From contig JAHEMN010000004.1 of NCBI GenBank assembly GCA_024643645.1, positions 1 through 56,109 on the forward strand: a stretch of DNA of 56,109 nt, in the 5' to 3' direction. Within the stretch, counting starts at the first letter, position 1. Each line of letters starts with the position of its first letter. Of this stretch, positions 23,381-31,924 are shown in pieces. A program made the position numbers and the translations under genes. This DNA comes from Chitinophagaceae bacterium (GTDB lineage Bacteria; Bacteroidota; Bacteroidia; Chitinophagales; Chitinophagaceae). The notes under the pieces were generated by a model. The model did not search any database. It saw only the letters and a list, made by a program, of their open reading frames with translations, and was not told the origin of the DNA.

Positions 23381-23534
23381 TTAGCTATTTAAAACCACTT
23401 CCTCCATTTATTTGGAAGTTGCGCAAAGTTAACAGATACAACCATAAACAGAAGTTTTTTTGAACTTATAATGTTAAAATGCTTTTGCCGCCCCTCACAT
23501 CGAAGTTGCACCATTAAAATTGGCAAAAAAAACG

Positions 23535-23542
23535 TAAATTTG
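23535..23542 (+). promoter_or_regulatory. -7 box of the AraC-type regulator, very short leader
   Basis: TAAATTTG matches TAnnTTTG and ends only 9 bp before the chosen ATG at 23552. The transcript may therefore be nearly leaderless. Confidence 0.5.
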
Positions 23543-23551
23543 CACCCTGCA

Positions 23552-24493
23552 ATGCATAATCCTCCAGACATATTAGCCTTGGCTTATAAGCAATCCCTGA
23601 TGCAGGACCAGTTGGTCTTATTGCAGGAAAGAGTACAGGAAATACCTGGTTCGGTGCAGTATACTATCAACCGGTATAATCGTAACCCGCAATGGAATAT
23701 TGAAGATACCGGCATGTTGGTTTATCATTATGAGAAAAAAGATGATAAAAAAAACTACCTGGAACTCCGGTTTTGTGTAAGCGGCAATGTGTATTGCCGT
23801 AAAAAAGACATTGAATGTGATATGTGTCAATTCAGTGCGTCAAAAACCTGTTTGGAAAGGGTAGACAGTGTTGATGTTGTAAGTTTTAAGTTCTCCCCTA
23901 CTCATCTTAGTCATTTTTTAAAACCAAGAAAAGGTGACTCTGTATTGAGCGATGACATTCTGAATTTTACACACCGGTCTTCATTTACCAAGATCCTTCC
24001 ACTATGTGGTAAAACAAGAATGGTATTGGAGGGAGTTTTAAATCACACCTATACTGATACACTGGAAAATATCTATATCAATGCACAAACCCAAATGCTT
24101 TTATTATACAGCCTGGACTGTATGTTGGGTGAAAAAGAAATTGATGTGGTGAATTGTAAATTCCTTGCCAATGAGCAGGACAGGGAAAAGATCGTAAAGG
24201 CAAGAGAAATACTAATTCAACATATTGGCGAACCAATTACCATTAAGGAGTTAAGCCGTAAAGTAGCGATCAACGAATGTTATCTTAAGAAAGGATTTAA
24301 AGAATTATTCGGAACAACAATTTTTGACTTTTACCAAAGCCAACGTATGGAGCATGCAAAATATCTTTTGTATGAAAAAGGATTAAGTGTAACAGAAGTT
24401 TCTTTGTCGCTTGGCTACTCTTCTATTTCCCATTTCTCCACAGCTTTTAAAAAGCATACCGGATTGAAACCTTGCGAATTATTACTTAGATAA
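23552..24493 (+). CDS. AraC-family transcriptional regulator with a cysteine cluster
   Basis: The 313-residue regulator has a C-terminal AraC double helix-turn-helix (residues about 215-313: ITIKELSRKVAINECYLKKG, then VTEVSLSLGYSSISHFSTAF). The N-terminal sensor half has five cysteines within 26 residues: Cys75, 82, 89, 92 and 100, spaced CX6CX6CX2CX7C. That pattern could hold zinc or an Fe-S cluster. The general layout resembles PchR-like siderophore regulators. The ATG at 23552 is preferred over the open frame from 23471 because it follows the -7 box. It sits just upstream of the cytochrome operon, its likely target. Confidence 0.85.
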   Translation: MHNPPDILALAYKQSLMQDQLVLLQERVQEIPGSVQYTINRYNRNPQWNIEDTGMLVYHYEKKDDKKNYLELRFCVSGNVYCRKKDIECDMCQFSASKTCLERVDSVDVVSFKFSPTHLSHFLKPRKGDSVLSDDILNFTHRSSFTKILPLCGKTRMVLEGVLNHTYTDTLENIYINAQTQMLLLYSLDCMLGEKEIDVVNCKFLANEQDREKIVKAREILIQHIGEPITIKELSRKVAINECYLKKGFKELFGTTIFDFYQSQRMEHAKYLLYEKGLSVTEVSLSLGYSSISHFSTAFKKHTGLKPCELLLR

Positions 24494-24558
24494 TTCTACA
24501 GTATTTTATCCCCCTTGTTTGTACTTCTTCTATTTTATTTTTTCATACTGACGTTATC

Positions 24559-24572
24559 TTGATTTAGATTAA
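24559..24572 (+). promoter_or_regulatory. FNR/CRP-like site upstream of the cytochrome operon
   Basis: TTGATTTAGATTAA matches TTGAT-N4-ATCAA with one mismatch. Its centre is about 42 bp upstream of the start expected from a near-consensus -7 box (CATTTTTG, 24594-24601). That is the class II activator position of FNR and CRP proteins. Confidence 0.5.
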
Positions 24573-24593
24573 CCTCAATTTTTCGTATGGCAT

Positions 24594-24601
24594 CATTTTT
24601 G
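24594..24601 (+). promoter_or_regulatory. Near-consensus -7 box of the cytochrome operon
   Basis: CATTTTTG differs from TAnnTTTG at one base and ends 17 bp before the ATG at 24619. A weak box fits a promoter that needs an activator. Confidence 0.35.
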
Positions 24602-24618
24602 GATATTTTATCCCAGCA

Positions 24619-24999
24619 ATGCGAAAGACTTTGGCTATAGCACTGATCAGTATTCATCTAACCGGAACTACCGAGCTAGGCCAGCTAATGCATATACCAC
24701 AATTACTTACTCATTTCTTTCAGCATCACAGAATAAATCCTGATATAAATTTTATTGATTTTATCACAATGCATTACGCTGGTGATGATGGTACTACTGC
24801 TGATGATGACATTGACAATAAATTACCTTTTCATAATACTAATAATAATACTGTTACGATCATATATTCTCCAATGACATGTGGAGCAATTATTAATAAT
24901 ATTGATATAAGAAAAACCAAAAGTTACAACTCACATCTTCCAACCGAAATCACTTCTGCTTTTATTTCCCAAATATTACAACCACCAAGAGTCGCCTGA
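24619..24999 (+). CDS. Small hypothetical exported protein (126 aa)
   Basis: I recognise the type as a short Bacteroidota protein of unknown function. The first 20 residues (MRKTLAIALISIHLTGTTEL) could be an uncleaved signal or anchor. The rest is rich in His, Asn and Asp (HFFQHHRINPDINFIDFITM, DDGTTADDDIDNKLPF), with one cysteine near residue 90. It may bind metal. It is the first gene of the run leading to the cytochromes, and lies just after the FNR-like site. Confidence 0.65.
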   Translation: MRKTLAIALISIHLTGTTELGQLMHIPQLLTHFFQHHRINPDINFIDFITMHYAGDDGTTADDDIDNKLPFHNTNNNTVTIIYSPMTCGAIINNIDIRKTKSYNSHLPTEITSAFISQILQPPRVA

Positions 25000-25164
25000 T
25001 TTTTACAAAAATTATAACCTGAAGCAAAATAATTGCCGGAAAGAAAAAGTTACAATCAATAACCCGTAATACTTTTTTGATTAGCATTTTCAAATAATTG
25101 GCATCGTAATCATTGTATTACAACTTATTTTTTGCTGATTAATTAACTATCACAACCAATTGAC

Positions 25165-25866
25165 ATGAAAAATATAAAGGGCAATAAAATAATTGCAGGC
25201 ATAGTAATTCTGTTTTTTGTAATTGCCTGCCGTCATGAAATATTACAAAATAATACAGAGATAAACCCGGGAACTCCGGTACCAACTTCAAATTGCAGCC
25301 CCGATACGGTCTACTTTGCCAATCAGATCATGCCTATTATCTCTTCTAATTGCACTATGAGCGGTTGTCATGATAATATTACCCATGCAGATGGAGTTAA
25401 CCTGACTTCATACACTAGAATTATGAGGTATGTTGTAGCTGGAAATGCCAATGAAAGTAAATTATTCAAAGTCATAATTAAATCAGATGGCGACAGGATG
25501 CCACCACCACCTATGCCCCCATTATCATCCGAACAAAAGGCATTAATTCAAAAATGGATATCCCAGGGAGCAAAAAATAACACTTGTATCGGAAGTTGTG
25601 ATACAACAGTTTTTACGTACAGTGGATCTGTAAGACCTTTAATAGAAACAAAATGTATTGGATGTCACAACCCTGCTAATCCTGGCGGGAACATTGACCT
25701 TTCCACTTATAATGCTGTAAAAATTGTAGCCTTAAACGGAAAATTATACGGATCAGTTGCGCAACTGCCAGGCTATTCTCCTATGCCAAAAAATTCAATC
25801 AAACTTATCGACTGTGAGATAAGGCAAATTCAAAAATGGATTGCTGCAGGCTCACAAAACAATTAA
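25165..25866 (+). CDS. Di-domain c-type cytochrome lipoprotein
   Basis: The 233-residue protein has a lipobox (FFVIAC, Cys22) and two related cytochrome-c-like domains. The first has CTMSGCH near residue 67, a CX4CH spacing rather than CXXCH. The second has a canonical CIGCH near residue 165. The loops around MPPPPMPPL and SPMPKNS could supply the axial methionine. It probably faces the periplasm as an electron carrier. The second domain is clearly homologous to the next gene, which points to tandem duplication. Confidence 0.85.
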   Translation: MKNIKGNKIIAGIVILFFVIACRHEILQNNTEINPGTPVPTSNCSPDTVYFANQIMPIISSNCTMSGCHDNITHADGVNLTSYTRIMRYVVAGNANESKLFKVIIKSDGDRMPPPPMPPLSSEQKALIQKWISQGAKNNTCIGSCDTTVFTYSGSVRPLIETKCIGCHNPANPGGNIDLSTYNAVKIVALNGKLYGSVAQLPGYSPMPKNSIKLIDCEIRQIQKWIAAGSQNN

Positions 25867-25876
25867 ATCAATTTTC

Positions 25877-26257
25877 ATGAAATTAATTTTTTCAATAGCA
25901 ATATTCATCTGGCTTGTTTCATTGAGTGCCTGCTATTACGATAAAGAAGAACTTTTATATGGAAATAACAATTCGGGGCCTTGTACAGACTCAACAGGTA
26001 TAGTTTCCTATTCTCAAAAAATAATACCTGTATTTCAACAATTCTGCTATAGTTGTCACAACAGCAGTTTCCCATCAGGCAATATAACAATGGGAACTTA
26101 TACTGCGGATAAAGCAATAGGACTTAATGGAAAACTATTTGGCAGTATAAATCACACAACAGGTTTTTCTCCAATGCCTAAAGGAATGGCAAAACTGAAC
26201 AATTGCCATATAGCAACCATTAAAAAATGGATCGATCAGAATATGCCAAACAATTAA
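25877..26257 (+). CDS. Mono-heme c-type cytochrome lipoprotein
   Basis: About 126 residues with a lipobox at LVSLSAC (Cys19) and one CYSCH heme site near residue 61. The tail GLNGKLFGSINHTTGFSPMP matches the second domain of the preceding cytochrome (ALNGKLYGSVAQLPGYSPMP). The frame opens at 25841, inside the previous gene, but the ATG at 25877 gives the proper lipoprotein signal. It lies 10 bp after its neighbour, so the two are surely co-transcribed. Confidence 0.85.
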   Translation: MKLIFSIAIFIWLVSLSACYYDKEELLYGNNNSGPCTDSTGIVSYSQKIIPVFQQFCYSCHNSSFPSGNITMGTYTADKAIGLNGKLFGSINHTTGFSPMPKGMAKLNNCHIATIKKWIDQNMPNN

Positions 26258-26268
26258 AATCAATAACA

Positions 26269-26724
26269 GTGAAAAAGAAAAAAATTCTACAGTATATCGT
26301 TCTGCCAATAGTATTGATCATCGGTGCAATCGCCATTTATTTCTATAAAGAGTATAACCGCACACATAAAGATGTATCTGATCTTAATGCAGACTATGCT
26401 GTTACAGCAACAAACCTCCTTAATGAGTTCGAATCAAATGAACAATCTTCCAATAAAAAATACTGGGATAAAGTAATAGAAGTAGAAGGGATAGCTAAAG
26501 ACCTGGTGAAAGACGCAAAGGGATTTTACACAATTGTATTAGGAGACCCGGAAACTATGTCTGCTGTACGGTGCAGTATAGACAGTGCACATAATAATGA
26601 AGCAAATTCTATTACGAAAGGAAAGAACATTAAAATAAAAGGTATTTGCTCTGGATTTAATTCTGATGAATTATTGGGATCGGATGTAGTACTTGTACGA
26701 AGTGTTGTTCAATCAACTAATTAA
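26269..26724 (+). CDS. Membrane-anchored OB-fold (tRNA_anti-like) protein
   Basis: About 151 residues from a GTG start at 26269 (VKKKKILQYIVLPIVLIIGA), giving an N-terminal membrane helix. The remainder (KVIEVEGIAKDLVKDAKGFY, VRCSIDS, GKNIKIKGICSGFNSDELLG) fits the tRNA_anti-like OB-fold family. These have no known nucleic acid role in the envelope. The ATG at 26227 lies inside the previous gene and is less likely. It is 11 bp after the cytochrome gene. Confidence 0.7.
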   Translation: MKKKKILQYIVLPIVLIIGAIAIYFYKEYNRTHKDVSDLNADYAVTATNLLNEFESNEQSSNKKYWDKVIEVEGIAKDLVKDAKGFYTIVLGDPETMSAVRCSIDSAHNNEANSITKGKNIKIKGICSGFNSDELLGSDVVLVRSVVQSTN

Positions 26725-26747
26725 GATCATCTACTAAAAATAAAACA

Positions 26748-27311
26748 ATGAAAAAAATAATCATAGTATGTATAGCAGCATTAACAGCTATTACAAGTTT
26801 CGGTCAAAAAGTTTTTACAAAAACTGCAGAGGTATATTTCGATGCCACTTCTCCATCATCACCGGAAAAAATTGAAGGTATTAACAGAAGCGGAACTTGT
26901 GTAATTGATACAAAAAATGGCAATATGCAATTCGTAGCATTAATGAAAGGATTTGCATTTGAAAGAGCATTAATGGAAGAACATTTCAATGAGAATTATG
27001 TAGAAAGCCATAAATATCCAAAAGCAGAATTTAAAGGTGATTTAAAAAATATTGATAAAGTTGACTTTACAAAAGATGGCACATATACTTTGAAAGTAAA
27101 AGGCGTACTTTCTTTGCATGGTGAATCGAAAGAGCTTGAAACCGAAGCTAAATTCATTGTTCAAAATGGCAATATAAAAGCATCAACAGCTTTTAGTGTT
27201 CAACTCTCCGATTTTAAGATCTCAATACCTGGGCTTGTGGCAGATAAACTTTCAAAAACAGCCAAAGTAGGCATCAATTGCTCTCTTCAATCTTTAAAAA
27301 CCAACCCTTAA
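26748..27311 (+). CDS. YceI-family periplasmic protein
   Basis: The 187-residue protein has a signal peptide (MKKIIIVCIAALTAITSFGQ) and the YceI lipocalin-like barrel. The barrel shows FDATSPSSPEKIEGINR, FERALMEEHFNENYVESHKYPKAEFKG-type strands and a GTYTLKVKGVLSLHGESKE segment. YceI proteins bind polyisoprenoids such as ubiquinone or related lipids. Next to cytochromes it suggests a quinone or isoprenoid carrier. It is 23 bp after the OB-fold gene. Confidence 0.87.
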   Translation: MKKIIIVCIAALTAITSFGQKVFTKTAEVYFDATSPSSPEKIEGINRSGTCVIDTKNGNMQFVALMKGFAFERALMEEHFNENYVESHKYPKAEFKGDLKNIDKVDFTKDGTYTLKVKGVLSLHGESKELETEAKFIVQNGNIKASTAFSVQLSDFKISIPGLVADKLSKTAKVGINCSLQSLKTNP

Positions 27312-27321
27312 TCATAGCATT

Positions 27322-28233
27322 ATGAAAAGTCTTTTTATCAATTCTCTTATAGTACTATTAGGCTTATTCACTTCATTTACATTATTTGCGCAGCAAGAAG
27401 ATCTGATGAAGCTGCTGGGTGAAGAAAAGCCAGAAAAAGTAAGAGTAAAATATGCTTTTAAATCACCAAGGGTAATAAACGGACATTCAATTGAATTTCT
27501 AAACCCCGGCACTATGGACTTCAGGATACTGCATCGTTTCGGAGAATTGAACCAGGGATATAAGAATTTTTTTGGGCTAGATCAGGCAAGTATGCGTATG
27601 GGATTTGATTTCGGTATTTTACAAAATCTAATGGTTGGTGTTGGAAGAAGCACATACAAAAAAGAATTAGATGCTTATTTAAAATATGCACCTATCAGGC
27701 AATCAACGGGCCCCTGGAGCTCTCCGGTTACTGTAGCTTTGGTTTCAGGAATTACGATGGATGGTCTTCCATGGAGTGATCCGGACAGAAAAAATTTTTT
27801 TACTTCACGATTAGCATACTACTTCCAGGCAATTATCGGACGCAAATTCAGCGAAGGATTTTCACTTCAGGTTTCTCCAACGATGGTACATAAAAACCTT
27901 GTTCAATTACAAACTGATGTAAATAATATTTATGCAATTGGTGTGGGTGGCAGACTTAAACTTTCAAAAAGAATTGCTTTTACCTGGGACTATCATCATG
28001 TAATAATCGGTATGCCCGATAGTGGCTATTATCATCCTGTTTCTGTAGGCTTTGATATAGAAACAGGAGGCCATGTTTTTCAACTTCATTTCTCCAATGC
28101 AACTGGAATGAACGAAAGAGCATTTATAACAGAGACCACAGGGCAATTTGGTAAAGGCGATATAAGATTTGGCTTTAACTTATCCAGAGTTTTCCAGATA
28201 GGAAAGAAAAAAAGAATTAAACAAGTTGAATAA
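27322..28233 (+). CDS. DUF5777-family outer-membrane beta-barrel protein
   Basis: The 303-residue protein has a signal peptide (about residues 1-24, ending LFAQQ) and many amphipathic strands (HSIEFLNPGTMDFRILHRFG, MGFDFGILQNLMVGVGR, YYFQAIIGRKFSEGFSLQVS). These features fit the DUF5777 barrel family, often found beside YceI and cytochrome genes. It probably forms an outer-membrane barrel. It is the last gene of the run and converges on the ChaN-like gene with an 10-bp gap. Confidence 0.8.
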   Translation: MKSLFINSLIVLLGLFTSFTLFAQQEDLMKLLGEEKPEKVRVKYAFKSPRVINGHSIEFLNPGTMDFRILHRFGELNQGYKNFFGLDQASMRMGFDFGILQNLMVGVGRSTYKKELDAYLKYAPIRQSTGPWSSPVTVALVSGITMDGLPWSDPDRKNFFTSRLAYYFQAIIGRKFSEGFSLQVSPTMVHKNLVQLQTDVNNIYAIGVGGRLKLSKRIAFTWDYHHVIIGMPDSGYYHPVSVGFDIETGGHVFQLHFSNATGMNERAFITETTGQFGKGDIRFGFNLSRVFQIGKKKRIKQVE

Positions 28234-28243
28234 TCGAATAGTA

Positions 28244-29140
28244 TTAAAATGTTTTCTTCAAATTTGGGTCTGTTATAATAATGTAATCCCCCAAATGTTT
28301 AAATTTATCCCACCCGATAGCCATCGGGTCAGGATTTGCAAACGAGCTATCACTAAAACTACTGATGTTTATAATTTTTATTCGGGCATTTCTTTTTTGT
28401 AATTGAGCTGCTGTTCCCAATTTTTCATCAGAATGAAAGCGGCCCACCAAATGAAAGATCTTTTTATCCTTATTTTTCTTCCAGTATTTATAAATACTAT
28501 AGCTCATACCTGCATCCCACAAGCTCTGGCTATAATAGATCCTTGGATTGTTTGTACCCGGGCTGCCTCCTCCCATAAATTCTGAAAACTTTTCATAATA
28601 TCTTCCTGCCAAGGTATCATAAGGCAAAGGAGGAAGATATTTTTTGGAGGCCTTTGGTAACCCTTGCAAAGATTCCATACCCGTACTACTGACCATGCTC
28701 ACATATCTTCTTGGTGTATTAGCCGCTATTACAGCTAATTTATTTTCTTTCGCAAATTCCACCGTTGGTTTATAATCCTTATAGTTATTCCATGCTCTTG
28801 CCTCCTTTATAAATCGGGATTCAGCAATAAATCCTGCCAGGTATTCATTCAACACTAATTGACAGTCCGTCTCGAACATTTCCATACTTAAAGCAAGTTT
28901 ACTACCATATTGATCAAACAATGCTTTGAATATTGCTGTTTCCAAATAGTGTCCGGCACTGTCATTATGCTCTTCACCAAAAAAAATAACATCTGCATTG
29001 TTGCAATCAATAGCTATTTGTTCTGGCGTTACAATTTGTTTGGTCTTTGTATTATATATCTTAAAGTGTTGCTCTATGCCTGATTGTGCAATGACAAACT
29101 GATTGGTGAAGAAGACAATTGACAACAAGAATAATTTCAT
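28244..29140 (-). CDS. ChaN-family heme/iron-regulated protein
   Basis: The 298-residue protein has a signal peptide (MKLFLLSIVFFTNQFVIAQ). It shows the ChaN/EreA-like motifs VIFFGEEHNDSAGH near residue 52 and LALSMEMFETDCQL near 82. Campylobacter ChaN binds two co-facial hemes as an iron-regulated lipoprotein. No lipobox cysteine is evident here, so it may be soluble. It lies next to cytochrome and TonB-receptor genes, which fits heme handling. Heme binding itself is inferred. Confidence 0.8.
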   Translation of the reverse strand: MKLFLLSIVFFTNQFVIAQSGIEQHFKIYNTKTKQIVTPEQIAIDCNNADVIFFGEEHNDSAGHYLETAIFKALFDQYGSKLALSMEMFETDCQLVLNEYLAGFIAESRFIKEARAWNNYKDYKPTVEFAKENKLAVIAANTPRRYVSMVSSTGMESLQGLPKASKKYLPPLPYDTLAGRYYEKFSEFMGGGSPGTNNPRIYYSQSLWDAGMSYSIYKYWKKNKDKKIFHLVGRFHSDEKLGTAAQLQKRNARIKIINISSFSDSSFANPDPMAIGWDKFKHLGDYIIITDPNLKKTF

Positions 29141-29205
29141 TTTAATAATTTATAGTAATTATAAATACGTTATTAATATTTACCTGAAAAAATAAAATAG
29201 CTGTT

Positions 29206-29213
29206 TACTTTTG
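29206..29213 (+). promoter_or_regulatory. -7 box of the nitroreductase-SET operon
   Basis: TACTTTTG matches TAnnTTTG, 14 bp before the nitroreductase ATG. Confidence 0.45.
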
Positions 29214-29227
29214 TTCAAATATAATAA

Positions 29228-29812
29228 ATGATCACACCCGAAATTTTTAACCAGTTTGTAAGGAGTCGCCGTTCTACATTTCCTGATCAATTCGAAGCAG
29301 GGAAAAAAGTGGATGATGCTATAGTGAAGGAAATACTTACCAATGCCTGTTGGGCACCAAATCATGGCAAACAAGAGCCGTGGCACTTTACCGTATTTAC
29401 TGATGAGGGCTTACAAAAATTTGCGACTTATCAAAGTGAACTTTATAAAGAGTTGGCAGGGGAAAACTTTAAAGAGATCACTTATTCCAAGTTACAGCAA
29501 AACCCTTTAAAGGCTTCTCACATAATTGCTATTGCCATGAAGAAAACAACGAATAAAAATATTCCAGAAGTTGAAGATATAGCTGCAGTTGCCTGTGCAG
29601 TTGAGAATATTTATTTATCTGTTACTGCCTATGGCCTTGGTGGATACTGGACGACTGGTGGCATAACCTATAAAGACAAAGCAAAAGAATTTTTTGGTCT
29701 GTCAGAAGAAGATAAACTAATGGGATTTTTTTACATAGGGCATATCGCAATACCATCAAGTGGAGCTACCAGAAAACCATTGGAAGAAAAAGTAACCTGG
29801 ATCAAGCATTAA
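29228..29812 (+). CDS. Nitroreductase family protein
   Basis: The 194-residue FMN-type oxidoreductase has the N-terminal SRRSTFPDQF segment, ACWAPNHGKQEPWHFTVF (FMN-binding region) near residue 40, and AVACAVENIYLSVTAYGLGGYW near residue 120. It most likely reduces nitro compounds or quinones with NAD(P)H. The SET-domain gene starts 2 bp after its stop, which suggests joint expression. The natural substrate is unknown. Confidence 0.88.
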   Translation: MITPEIFNQFVRSRRSTFPDQFEAGKKVDDAIVKEILTNACWAPNHGKQEPWHFTVFTDEGLQKFATYQSELYKELAGENFKEITYSKLQQNPLKASHIIAIAMKKTTNKNIPEVEDIAAVACAVENIYLSVTAYGLGGYWTTGGITYKDKAKEFFGLSEEDKLMGFFYIGHIAIPSSGATRKPLEEKVTWIKH

Positions 29813-29814
29813 TT

Positions 29815-30246
29815 ATGGCAAAAGAAATTTTTACTCCAACCTATAAAATTCATTATCCTGTTAAAATTGCTAAGAGCAAGATAGCAGGTAAAGGTGCATA
29901 TGCAATACAACGAATCCCTGCAAAAAGAAAGATCGGTGATCTTGGTGGTGTTATCATCACAATGAAGGAAGCTATGAAGTTGATAAAAGATCTGAAAGTG
30001 ATCAATCTGGTAGAGCTGGAAGATGATCTTGCTTTAAATGCTTCTGACAATCCAAATGAAATGCGGTTTATCAATCACTCCTGCGATCCGAATACTTATA
30101 TGAGAGTATTGAGGAACAGGGTAGAATTTTATGCATTGAAAAATATTAAAAAGGGTGAAGAGCTAAGTTGTGATTATGGAGAAACCCATCATGAAGGCAC
30201 CTTACCTTGCCTATGCGGAGCAAAAAATTGCCGGGAATTCATCTAA
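29815..30246 (+). CDS. SET-domain protein lysine methyltransferase
   Basis: The 143-residue protein is essentially a minimal SET domain. SKIAGKGAYAIQRIPAKRKI is the start, RFINHSCDPNTY near residue 82 is the SAM/knot motif, and GEELSCDYGE near 117 supplies the catalytic tyrosine. The post-SET tail CLCGAKNC is a CXC-X4-C zinc site. It should methylate a lysine using SAM. Bacterial SET proteins are uncommon and their targets are often histone-like or ribosomal proteins. It is coupled to the nitroreductase gene. Confidence 0.88.
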   Translation: MAKEIFTPTYKIHYPVKIAKSKIAGKGAYAIQRIPAKRKIGDLGGVIITMKEAMKLIKDLKVINLVELEDDLALNASDNPNEMRFINHSCDPNTYMRVLRNRVEFYALKNIKKGEELSCDYGETHHEGTLPCLCGAKNCREFI

Positions 30247-30258
30247 ACGTTCTACTGA

Positions 30259-30281
30259 TCAATATCAGCAACTGATATTGA
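30259..30281. repeat. Perfect 10-bp inverted repeat before the cytochrome c peroxidase gene
   Basis: TCAATATCAG and CTGATATTGA are separated by CAA. It lies between the SET stop codon and the ATG at 30308. No T-run follows, so it looks more like an operator or mRNA hairpin than a terminator. Confidence 0.55.
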
Positions 30282-30307
30282 AAAATTGAGTTTATTTGCC
30301 TCCTTCT

Positions 30308-31372
30308 ATGCAAAAAGTATTTGTAATAACAAGTTTATCTTTATTTGTATTGATAGCAGTATCCTTCAGCAATGAAAGTCTGCGTAGTAAATATTCCAGA
30401 CCTGCTTCTCAATGGCCAGTACCGAACATTGATAACGGTATTGAATGGAAAGAATTGGGAATTCTTCCTGAAAGTCCTTTAGAAAACAGTAAAGATTCAC
30501 TTAAAAATATTATTGAATTAGGTAAGTCTTTATTCTTTGATACCAGGTTAAGTGGCTCCGGAAAGATATCATGTGCTACTTGTCATGACCCTGCATTGAA
30601 CTGGACAGACGGAAAAGAAAAATCCATCGGCCACGAAGGAACGATCAATAAAAGGAACTCTCCTACTATTCAAAACACCTGGTTTTTTAAAAGTCTTTTT
30701 TGGGATGGAAGAAGTAAAACCCTGGAAGATCAGGCTTTTGCTCCGATCAATAGTGAATCTGAAATGCATAGCGAAATGCCTGATCTGATAATGAAACTCA
30801 GAAATACAAAAGAGTATCCCGGTTTATTTACAAAAGCTTTTGGCAGCCCCGGCATTAATCCTAATCGAATGACGGAAGCAATAGCAATTTTTGAAAGAAC
30901 AATAGTAAGTAACAAATCAAAGTTTGATCATTTTTTAGCTGGCGAAAGAGAAACATTATCAAATAGCGAATTAAGAGGATTGCATCTATTCCGTACCAAA
31001 GCAAGATGTATGAATTGCCACAATGGGTCATTATTTTCTGACAATCAATTCCACAACAATGGAATTCAGTTAAATGGCAACCCTGAAAACGACAAAGGAC
31101 TTTTTACTGTTACTCATAAAGATGAGGATGTAGGAAAATTTAAAACTCCATCACTTAGGGATGTAACCAAAACAGGACCATGGATGCATAATGGAAAGCT
31201 GCAAAGCATTGAGGATGTACTACATCACTATAATAAAGGAGCAAATAAAAATAGTAGTGCAGATCCTAAGATCAGGGTTTTGCATTTATCAAAAAGGGAA
31301 TTAAAAGATCTTGGGGAATTCCTGAAAGCAATTTCTGCCCCACCCGTTGAGTTTAAAAAACCATCTTTTTAG
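30308..31372 (+). CDS. Di-heme cytochrome c peroxidase (MauG/CcpA family)
   Basis: About 354 residues with an N-terminal signal or anchor (MQKVFVITSLSLFVLIAVSF). Two heme c sites are visible: CATCH at residues 89-93 and CMNCH at 234-238, with FDTRLSGSGKISC before the first and FKTPSLRDVTKTGPWMHNG later, all typical of the family. It reduces hydrogen peroxide with electrons from periplasmic cytochromes, which could be those encoded at 25-26 kb. The ATG at 30308 is chosen over an upstream TTG. Confidence 0.9.
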   Translation: MQKVFVITSLSLFVLIAVSFSNESLRSKYSRPASQWPVPNIDNGIEWKELGILPESPLENSKDSLKNIIELGKSLFFDTRLSGSGKISCATCHDPALNWTDGKEKSIGHEGTINKRNSPTIQNTWFFKSLFWDGRSKTLEDQAFAPINSESEMHSEMPDLIMKLRNTKEYPGLFTKAFGSPGINPNRMTEAIAIFERTIVSNKSKFDHFLAGERETLSNSELRGLHLFRTKARCMNCHNGSLFSDNQFHNNGIQLNGNPENDKGLFTVTHKDEDVGKFKTPSLRDVTKTGPWMHNGKLQSIEDVLHHYNKGANKNSSADPKIRVLHLSKRELKDLGEFLKAISAPPVEFKKPSF

Positions 31373-31444
31373 TAATAAGCAACTAATGCAGCTTTAAAGT
31401 TATCTTTACAAACCGAATATTAAAAAAACATAAAAAAAATAATC

Positions 31445-31924
31445 ATGAAAAAATTGTTGTTTACCGTCGCTATCATTGTGTTAGCTTTCATTTCAAATGC
31501 ACAACCTCCTGAAGGAGATGCAAAAGTGGGAGAATGGTATGGCGAAAAAGTTGCCAATACTACAGAAGCGTTGAATGTTAATGATGTTGTTGCCAAGCTA
31601 AACGGCGGTTCAGAATTTCCTGAAGTAAAAATTAAAGCCAAGATCATAGAAGTTTGTCCTAATAAAGGATGTTGGCTGAAGCTTGAATTAGAAGATGGAT
31701 CAAACGCTACTGTAAAGATGAAAGATTATGGATTTTTCCTTCCATTGGCTGCAAAAGGAAAAAATGTAGTGATTGATGGTGAAGTAAAATTAAAAACAAC
31801 TTCTGTTGCTGAATTAAAGCATTATGCAGAAGATGCAAAAAAATCTAAAGAAGAAATTGCAGCTATCACAAAACCAGAAAAAGAAGTAAGGGTTACTGCA
31901 AAAGGAATAGTAATAGTAGATTAA
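31445..31924 (+). CDS. DUF4920-family exported protein
   Basis: The 159-residue protein has a signal peptide (MKKLLFTVAIIVLAFISNAQ) and the DUF4920 OB-like fold with AKIIEVCPNKGCWLKLELED near residue 65. That segment holds two conserved cysteines and could bind metal or redox cofactor. YGFFLPLAAKGKNVVIDGEV follows. The family is common in Bacteroidota and is uncharacterised. It has its own terminator and sits between the peroxidase and the FecA-like receptor. Confidence 0.82.
   Translation: MKKLLFTVAIIVLAFISNAQPPEGDAKVGEWYGEKVANTTEALNVNDVVAKLNGGSEFPEVKIKAKIIEVCPNKGCWLKLELEDGSNATVKMKDYGFFLPLAAKGKNVVIDGEVKLKTTSVAELKHYAEDAKKSKEEIAAITKPEKEVRVTAKGIVIVD

Follow-up and report, generated by a model that had tools for sequence, protein, structure and literature searches.

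Gene organization of the locus

We examined a gene block within a 56,109-nt stretch of DNA from a Chitinophagaceae bacterium (contig JAHEMN010000004.1 of assembly GCA_024643645.1), hereafter called the window. Five plus-strand genes spanning 25165–28233, with intergenic gaps of 10, 11, 23, and 10 nt, encode in order a diheme cytochrome c lipoprotein, a monoheme cytochrome c lipoprotein, an oligonucleotide/oligosaccharide-binding (OB)-fold protein, a YceI protein, and a DUF5777 protein. A small gene (24619–24999) lies upstream, an AraC-family gene lies further upstream, and the next gene 3′ of the DUF5777 gene is convergent. All six open reading frames (ORFs) of the 24559–28233 region were confirmed on the plus strand. 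The initial annotation had described six genes in tight order; this held for the five genes 10–23 nt apart, but 165 nt separates the small gene from them.

25165..25866, + strand: diheme cytochrome c lipoprotein (PSCyt1 in Pfam; CX4CH at 25351–25371 and CXXCH at 25654–25668; mature N-terminus CRHE)
25877..26257, + strand: monoheme cytochrome c lipoprotein (CXXCH at 26045–26059; mature N-terminus CYYDKEE; assigned by profile membership)
26269..26724, + strand: OB-fold protein, tRNA_anti-like (Pfam, alignment, and model; one N-terminal membrane helix and two near-invariant cysteines)
26748..27311, + strand: YceI lipocalin-like periplasmic protein (Pfam; motif FxFExxLMxEHFNENYxES)
27322..28233, + strand: DUF5777 outer-membrane β-barrel (Pfam and model; 12 predicted strands, inward-facing invariant charged residues)

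The Pfam matches scored 42.8 bits for PSCyt1 in the first cytochrome (cut-off 22), 88.9 bits for tRNA_anti-like (cut-off 23.5), 45.9 bits for YceI (PF04264; cut-off 23.7), and 309.1 bits for DUF5777 (PF19089; cut-off 23.1), the last covering the full length of the profile (positions 1–247 of 247). The second cytochrome gave no match in a Pfam scan at an E-value of 0.1; it contains a CXXCH motif and joined the family of the first cytochrome in an iterated profile. The two cytochromes carry two heme motifs (CX4CH and CXXCH) and one, three in total, and a lipobox, as defined by our own pattern, was found in 188 of the 206 cytochrome genes examined. Together with the heme motifs and lipobox-like signals, the Pfam matches bore out the five protein assignments made earlier. 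The start of the second cytochrome is most likely ATG 25877, and that of the OB protein is most likely GTG 26269 rather than ATG 26227, because its relatives begin there.

Conservation of gene order

DUF5777 was present in 259 of the 295 Bacteroidia genomes sampled and in 45 of the 109 genomes of a phylum-wide sample, including 26 of the 82 from other classes. The neighborhoods of 135 distinct DUF5777 genes were mapped, among them that of the window and its three paralogues in the same genome, which holds four DUF5777 genes. These came from two class samples that both lean to close DUF5777 relatives: 60 stretches hand-picked among the best-scoring rows, 56 of them from other Bacteroidia genomes, and the best 80 of 588 named loci. 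Fifty-eight of the 60 stretches entered as DUF5777 loci (L040 had been fetched for a YceI). Two stretches fetched for a DUF5777 match (L079 and L127) were left out of the counts since greedy ORF thinning kept no DUF5777 ORF, and three duplicates (L146, L148, and L160) were dropped. Contig ends and ORF thinning make the neighbor counts low rather than high.

A YceI gene neighbored DUF5777 on the same strand at 99 of the 135 loci, a cytochrome or other CXXCH-type gene at 107, and an OB gene at 76; either a YceI or a cytochrome neighbor was found at 120. YceI was immediately upstream of DUF5777 at 88 loci, and the exact run cytochrome(s)–OB–YceI–DUF5777 occurred at 47. Within the same genome as the window, a second complete cytochrome–cytochrome–OB–YceI–DUF5777 set surrounds another DUF5777 gene on contig 156 (L038), and all seven genes, comprising the AraC gene, the small gene, and the five-gene block, are ordered alike in L098, L099, L102, and L103.

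Outside the class, 16 stretches were hand-chosen from 15 of the 26 positive genomes. Cytochrome, YceI, and DUF5777 genes were directly adjacent in 12 of them, two with two YceI genes; of the others, one showed cytochrome–DUF5777, one had an upstream cytochrome with an opposite ORF between, one was at a contig end, and one had neither cytochrome nor YceI. The OB gene was not seen in these 16 stretches. The gene order is conserved far beyond chance, and it is kept in relatives far outside the family, contrary to the refuting condition of the initial annotation that no relative would share it. On the in-class and out-of-class counts, the three-gene core cytochrome–YceI–DUF5777 looks old and the OB gene was apparently added within class Bacteroidia, with the AraC and small genes belonging to the version of the operon in the lineage of the window.

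Of the families seen in five loci or more, regulators (LytTR, kinase, extracytoplasmic function (ECF) sigma, and AraC), SprB-type cytochromes, and the small gene kept a fixed position next to the core, whereas ATP-binding cassette (ABC) ATPase, short-chain dehydrogenase/reductase (SDR), and other families recurred in five to seven loci in scattered places and on either strand; these families were named by eye except where profile-scanned. Correlations of a mirror-tree comparison with DUF5777 (r of 0.62 for YceI, 0.53 for OB, and 0.49 for the cytochrome) were set aside, shared phylogeny being uncontrolled. In L121 (551–4796), a second YceI gene precedes those of a two-component propeller histidine kinase (Reg_prop, Y_Y_Y, and His_kinase) and a LytTR response regulator, and by size and order the same set also lies beside the cluster in L115, L119, L128, L134, L136, L137, and L139. 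YceI may there belong to a sensor. Downstream of the block in the window, 28244–31924 encodes a ChaN-like heme-binding protein, a MauG-like diheme peroxidase, and a DUF4920 protein, and genes of similar sizes run on after the DUF5777 gene of L100.

Putative surface-export heme proteins near the core

Additional heme proteins were found at some loci. In L115, L119, and L121, a gene for a CXXCH protein is inserted between OB and YceI; the proteins of L115 (6533–7384) and L121 (6507–7346) have a choice-of-anchor V domain and a type IX secretion tail, and that of L119 is a close homologue. A CXXCH protein of the same choice-of-anchor V/type IX tail kind adjoins DUF5777 in L052 (3304–4128), and L219 contains another type IX tail protein with CXXCH beside the core. 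Directly downstream of DUF5777 in L103 (6845–8884) is a cytochrome-family lipoprotein with SprB repeats, whose homologues occupy the same place in L100 (1050–2600) and L106, lie four genes upstream in L114, and lie three genes after DUF5777 in L041, from the genome of the window. These tails and repeats beside the core suggest, as far as they are reliable, that some heme proteins of the operon neighborhood are at the cell surface.

Predicted structures of DUF5777 and the OB protein

Structure prediction of DUF5777 gave a 12-strand outer-membrane barrel with a predicted local distance difference test (pLDDT) score of 90.2, in which the invariant residues D117, K175, Q183, R211, D245, and E247 face the interior. 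A sequence search of solved structures with DUF5777 gave no match. In strand number and overall fold, the model resembles the 12-strand porins KdgM and NanC, the lumen of which is charged as that predicted for DUF5777, although the sequence identity is 8–9%. Conserved extracellular loops were considered and found unsupported, the long-loop side having a mean of 2.61 bits versus 3.06 for the strands. The combination of an outer-membrane barrel with outer-membrane cytochromes also recalls MtrCAB conduits, in which a large outer-membrane barrel surrounds a multiheme cytochrome. Unlike MtrCAB, the present set has a barrel of 12 predicted strands and three heme motifs in all, and judging from the model the DUF5777 barrel looks too small to sheath a multiheme wire.

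The model of the OB protein (pLDDT 94.7) was nearest in fold to 3f1z, followed by CcmE and other OB folds; the N-terminal membrane helix and the OB fold are shared with CcmE.

Small His/Asp-rich gene upstream of the block

24619..24999, + strand: small His/Asp-rich protein, probably exported (alignment with relatives; neighbor loci)

The small gene reported in the initial annotation proved to be real: 17 invariant residues are common to its product and seven relatives from the fetched loci, and the alignment of these eight loci showed conserved HxxxH, HY, and D...D motifs and a C-terminal QPP. Pfam and NCBIfam scans assigned the product to no family. The small-protein family was present in 99 of the 295 class genomes, and its 30 best loci (L184–L213) were compared. 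A CusA/CzcA-type RND (resistance–nodulation–division) gene lay downstream in 25 of these, in a few with one gene between; the three tested all matched TIGR00914 over the available part, with scores short of the whole-protein cut-off, since each of these genes is truncated by the end of its locus. The small gene preceded cytochromes or YceI in four of the 30, namely in the window and in three genomes from a single other genus. A TA-N2-TTTG motif occurred within 60 nt upstream in 24 of the 30 loci versus 80 of 1565 background windows, and was not found at the copy in the window. On this distribution, the redox operon seems to have acquired a leader or sensor for metal response.

Functional interpretation

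The genes, their families, their conserved order, and the lipobox-like signals were observed directly, and the folds are predicted. From these and from published precedents, we tentatively read the operon as an envelope electron relay, in which YceI passes electrons, probably on isoprenoid quinone, to outer-membrane cytochromes. Owing to the protein families and the precedents, this is the best single reading, although its probability falls somewhat short of even. The periplasmic YceI lipocalin would carry isoprenoid quinone, which in Bacteroidota is menaquinone, and would pass electrons between the inner membrane and the membrane-anchored, probably outer-membrane, cytochrome c lipoproteins. 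DUF5777 would be the outer-membrane partner of these cytochromes, its narrow, charge-lined barrel docking them or passing a small redox compound, and the OB protein would anchor or assemble the set at the inner membrane. The direction of the electrons, the lipid, their acceptor, and the part of the barrel are those that we infer for such a relay. In some relatives, the extra heme proteins with surface-export tails would prolong the chain to the cell surface, and in the lineage of the window, expression would start from a conserved element beside the AraC regulator. A broader proposal, that quinone-loaded YceI feeds surface cytochromes held by a 12-strand barrel throughout the phylum as a small-barrel alternative to multiheme conduits, seems doubtful.

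Two published systems make the redox role advanced in the initial annotation, in which YceI as a lipid carrier is linked to cytochromes, plausible, as far as the available parts of the reports go. Ubiquinone-8 has been found with YceI proteins, one relative having been purified with it, and a link of YceI to cytochrome b561 has been described; in BcnA–LcoA of Burkholderia cenocepacia, a YceI gene is tied to a cytochrome gene with a redox role in the envelope, although the partner is a membrane b561 rather than c-type lipoproteins with an outer-membrane barrel and an OB protein (PMC9113575). In the Cbp2D/Cbp2E system of Cellvibrio japonicus, Cbp2D unites X158 (YceI) and X183/X132 cytochrome domains in one protein, and electron transfer has been proposed for this combination of a quinone-binding YceI-like domain with c-type cytochrome domains. 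Cbp2D differs in being a single multi-domain carbohydrate-binding protein with a proposed role in the reduction of lytic polysaccharide monooxygenase (LPMO), and the accessible text describes no barrel partner (PMC8981238). RNA-seq of Riemerella under iron limitation showed one YceI gene up by 1.16 log2 (PMC5429918); the available part of that report shows no link to an operon of this type.

Each family of the five-gene block is already known, and we place the set with YceI–cytochrome systems. Searching the open-licence literature by titles and abstracts, we found no paper describing the conserved cytochrome–YceI–DUF5777 set as a unit, nor one naming DUF5777. Should the relay hold, many Bacteroidota would possess an apparently untested redox system in the envelope, and YceI proteins would acquire a defined set of partners and could be assayed directly; otherwise, most sampled Bacteroidia still carry an outer-membrane protein with no assigned function.

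The distribution of DUF5777 relative to heme-copper oxidase subunit I also speaks for the relay; the oxidase subunit was matched in 283 of the 295 class genomes. DUF5777 was lacking in 10 of the 12 oxidase-negative genomes versus 26 of the 283 oxidase-positive genomes (Fisher P of 1e-8, uncorrected for kinship). The 12 oxidase-negative genomes fall in eight families; since five of them share one family, the independent evidence is smaller than the P-value suggests.

Several points weigh against the relay. The ligand, the electron transfer, and the expression are putative. The association with the oxidase may merely reflect a few anaerobic families, and 26 oxidase-positive class genomes are without DUF5777, which is also missing from 56 of the 82 out-of-class genomes. 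No YceI was labeled in the fetched stretch at 30 of the 135 loci; ORF thinning and contig ends explain some of these, and at least one (L039) has a YceI that the search profile missed. Surface-export heme proteins occur in a minority of loci. Solved small 12-strand barrels are often solute porins, and the YceI subfamily of the window matches solved YceI structures weakly (best E-value of 6e-8 in an alignment search).

The main rival is antioxidant repair of outer-membrane lipids, which would have most of its chemistry in common with the relay. YceI would bind peroxidized lipids or a radical-quenching quinol, to be re-reduced by the cytochromes as proposed for BcnA–LcoA. BcnA and its linked cytochrome b561 guard against lipid peroxyl radicals according to the available part of the report (PMC9113575), and the bias of DUF5777 towards aerobes and the MauG-like diheme peroxidase gene downstream in the window (30296–31372) are consistent with such a role. 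However, no b561 family was found among the ten window proteins scanned by Pfam (23471–31921), and the cytochromes here are c-type lipoproteins. We consider lipid repair rather unlikely, if worth keeping in mind. Still less probable is a solute channel, with DUF5777 as a substrate-specific porin and YceI as the periplasmic carrier for a compound, hydrophobic or anionic, that the cytochromes oxidize or reduce. The resemblance to small porins noted above is set against the families fixed beside the core, which are regulators, SprB-type cytochromes, and the small gene, and against the presence of DUF5777 in most class genomes, unlike a specialized uptake trait.

The neighborhood of the small-gene family raises another explanation, that the operon, at least in the lineage of the window, is an envelope system for metal (copper) stress with the small protein as metal sensor or binder and the operon serving to protect or supply redox enzymes. 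The frequent CusA/CzcA-type genes downstream of small-protein relatives, and the YceI or cytochrome genes of the operon type that follow it in the four loci, speak for it. The link of the small gene with the operon was seen just in near relatives and one other genus (L049 and L185–L187), and inspection by eye recognized no metal gene in the families that recur next to the core; we regard this explanation as improbable. Heme delivery or cytochrome assembly, with the OB protein as a CcmE-like chaperone and the cytochromes as its clients, is highly improbable, given that the structural Z-score of CcmE ties with those of tRNA-synthetase OB folds, that the 43 aligned OB proteins have no invariant or 90%-conserved histidine of the kind with which CcmE binds heme, and that OB was unseen in the out-of-class stretches.

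Upstream regulatory DNA

Three features lie upstream of the small gene.

23555..24493, + strand: AraC-family regulator gene (Pfam HTH_18, E-value 1.6e-20; ORF listed from 23471)
24559..24572, + strand: FNR/Crp-like dyad TTGATTTAGATTAA (pattern matches and matched controls)
24586..24608, + strand: conserved cis-element TATGGCATCATTTTTGGATATTT, putative promoter or operator (core in seven of eight small-gene loci; unique in the genome)

The initial annotation had put the operon under oxygen or redox control through an FNR-like site. The site is present at 24559–24572. The pattern TTGAT-N4-ATCAA with at most one mismatch occurred six times in the window versus 7.3 expected, and exact TTGAT-N4-ATYAA gave five matches, one palindrome being counted twice, versus 1.6 expected, with 4 of 100 shuffles reaching five. 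On these window-wide counts, the single TTGATTTAGATTAA site is hardly beyond chance, and its exact letters are not preserved when the intergenic DNA of L098, L099, L102, and L103 is aligned. An HTH_Crp_2 profile search, the one profile used for Crp/Fnr-type proteins, found three proteins in the genome, two receiver–Crp fusions and one of 205 aa; none of the three in this 94.5%-complete assembly has the N-terminal Cys cluster with which FNR-type proteins hold an Fe-S cluster. FNR control was rejected as a demonstrated mechanism, and the oxygen/FNR part of the earlier proposal is weak. The receiver–Crp fusions are encoded at L231 (667–1725) and L232 (1489–2544), the receiver part being judged by eye.

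What persisted of the proposal is that Crp/Fnr-like dyads recur. A loose TGA-N6-TYA dyad, a motif chosen after seeing the data, was found within 80 nt upstream of the 24586–24608 block in five of seven loci, including the window, versus 43 of 337 controls (P of 6e-4) or 12 of 80 near-relative controls (P of 1e-3). A strict dyad was found in three of the seven (P of 0.008 and 0.06, respectively), and over all operons the loose dyad showed no clear excess (0.81 versus 0.68 per kb). Shuffle tests gave higher contrasts (five of seven loci versus 0.95 expected, with none of 5000 shuffles as high; 18 of 115 operons versus 5.8 expected); these are inflated, dyads of this kind being frequent elsewhere in the intergenic DNA of those loci, and the matched controls give the proper comparison. 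These data hint weakly at a Crp/Fnr-family regulator acting at the locus.

The approximately 22-nt block upstream of the small gene was near-identical in L098, L099, L102, and L103, with diverged surroundings. Its core, TGGCATCATTTTTG in the window and TGGCAT-N-[AG]TT[TA]TTG in general, was found in seven of the eight aligned small-gene loci, the window included and L049 excepted, and the block at 24586–24608 is the sole copy in the genome at up to three mismatches. The block looks conserved as DNA; a conserved mini-ORF within it was rejected by eye, all three codon differences being non-synonymous. TGGCA-N6-TTG occurred in one of 337 upstream control segments and is common by chance in bulk DNA; the control segments were taken 30–110 nt before start codons, and the block in the window ends about 17 nt before the gene. 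The spacing fits the −24/−12 elements of a sigma54 promoter, for which the consensus is TGGCA at −24 and TTGC at −12, and the genome encodes rpoN and two strong sigma54 activators. Since the C at −12 is replaced by G, A, or T in all seven loci, a sigma54 promoter is no likelier than an AraC operator or a promoter of another type. The Flavobacterium psychrophilum transcriptome contains a sigma54 motif with typical −24/−12 elements, and the available part of that report shows no use for the operon of the window (PMC9723704).

The AraC-family protein is likely the local regulator. Most of its relatives begin at or near Met 23555, and a relative adjoins the operon upstream in L043, L098, L099, L101, L102, L103, L105, and L128. 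A C-x6-C-x2-C-x7-C cluster is present in the protein of the window and in those of L098, L099, L101, L102, L103, and L105, and is missing in that of L043, from the same genus; it is possibly a redox, metal, or Fe-S sensor. The intergenic DNA between the AraC gene and the small gene also contains an 11-nt direct repeat, TATTTTATCCC, at 24502–24512 and 24604–24614, the copies lying 102 nt apart.

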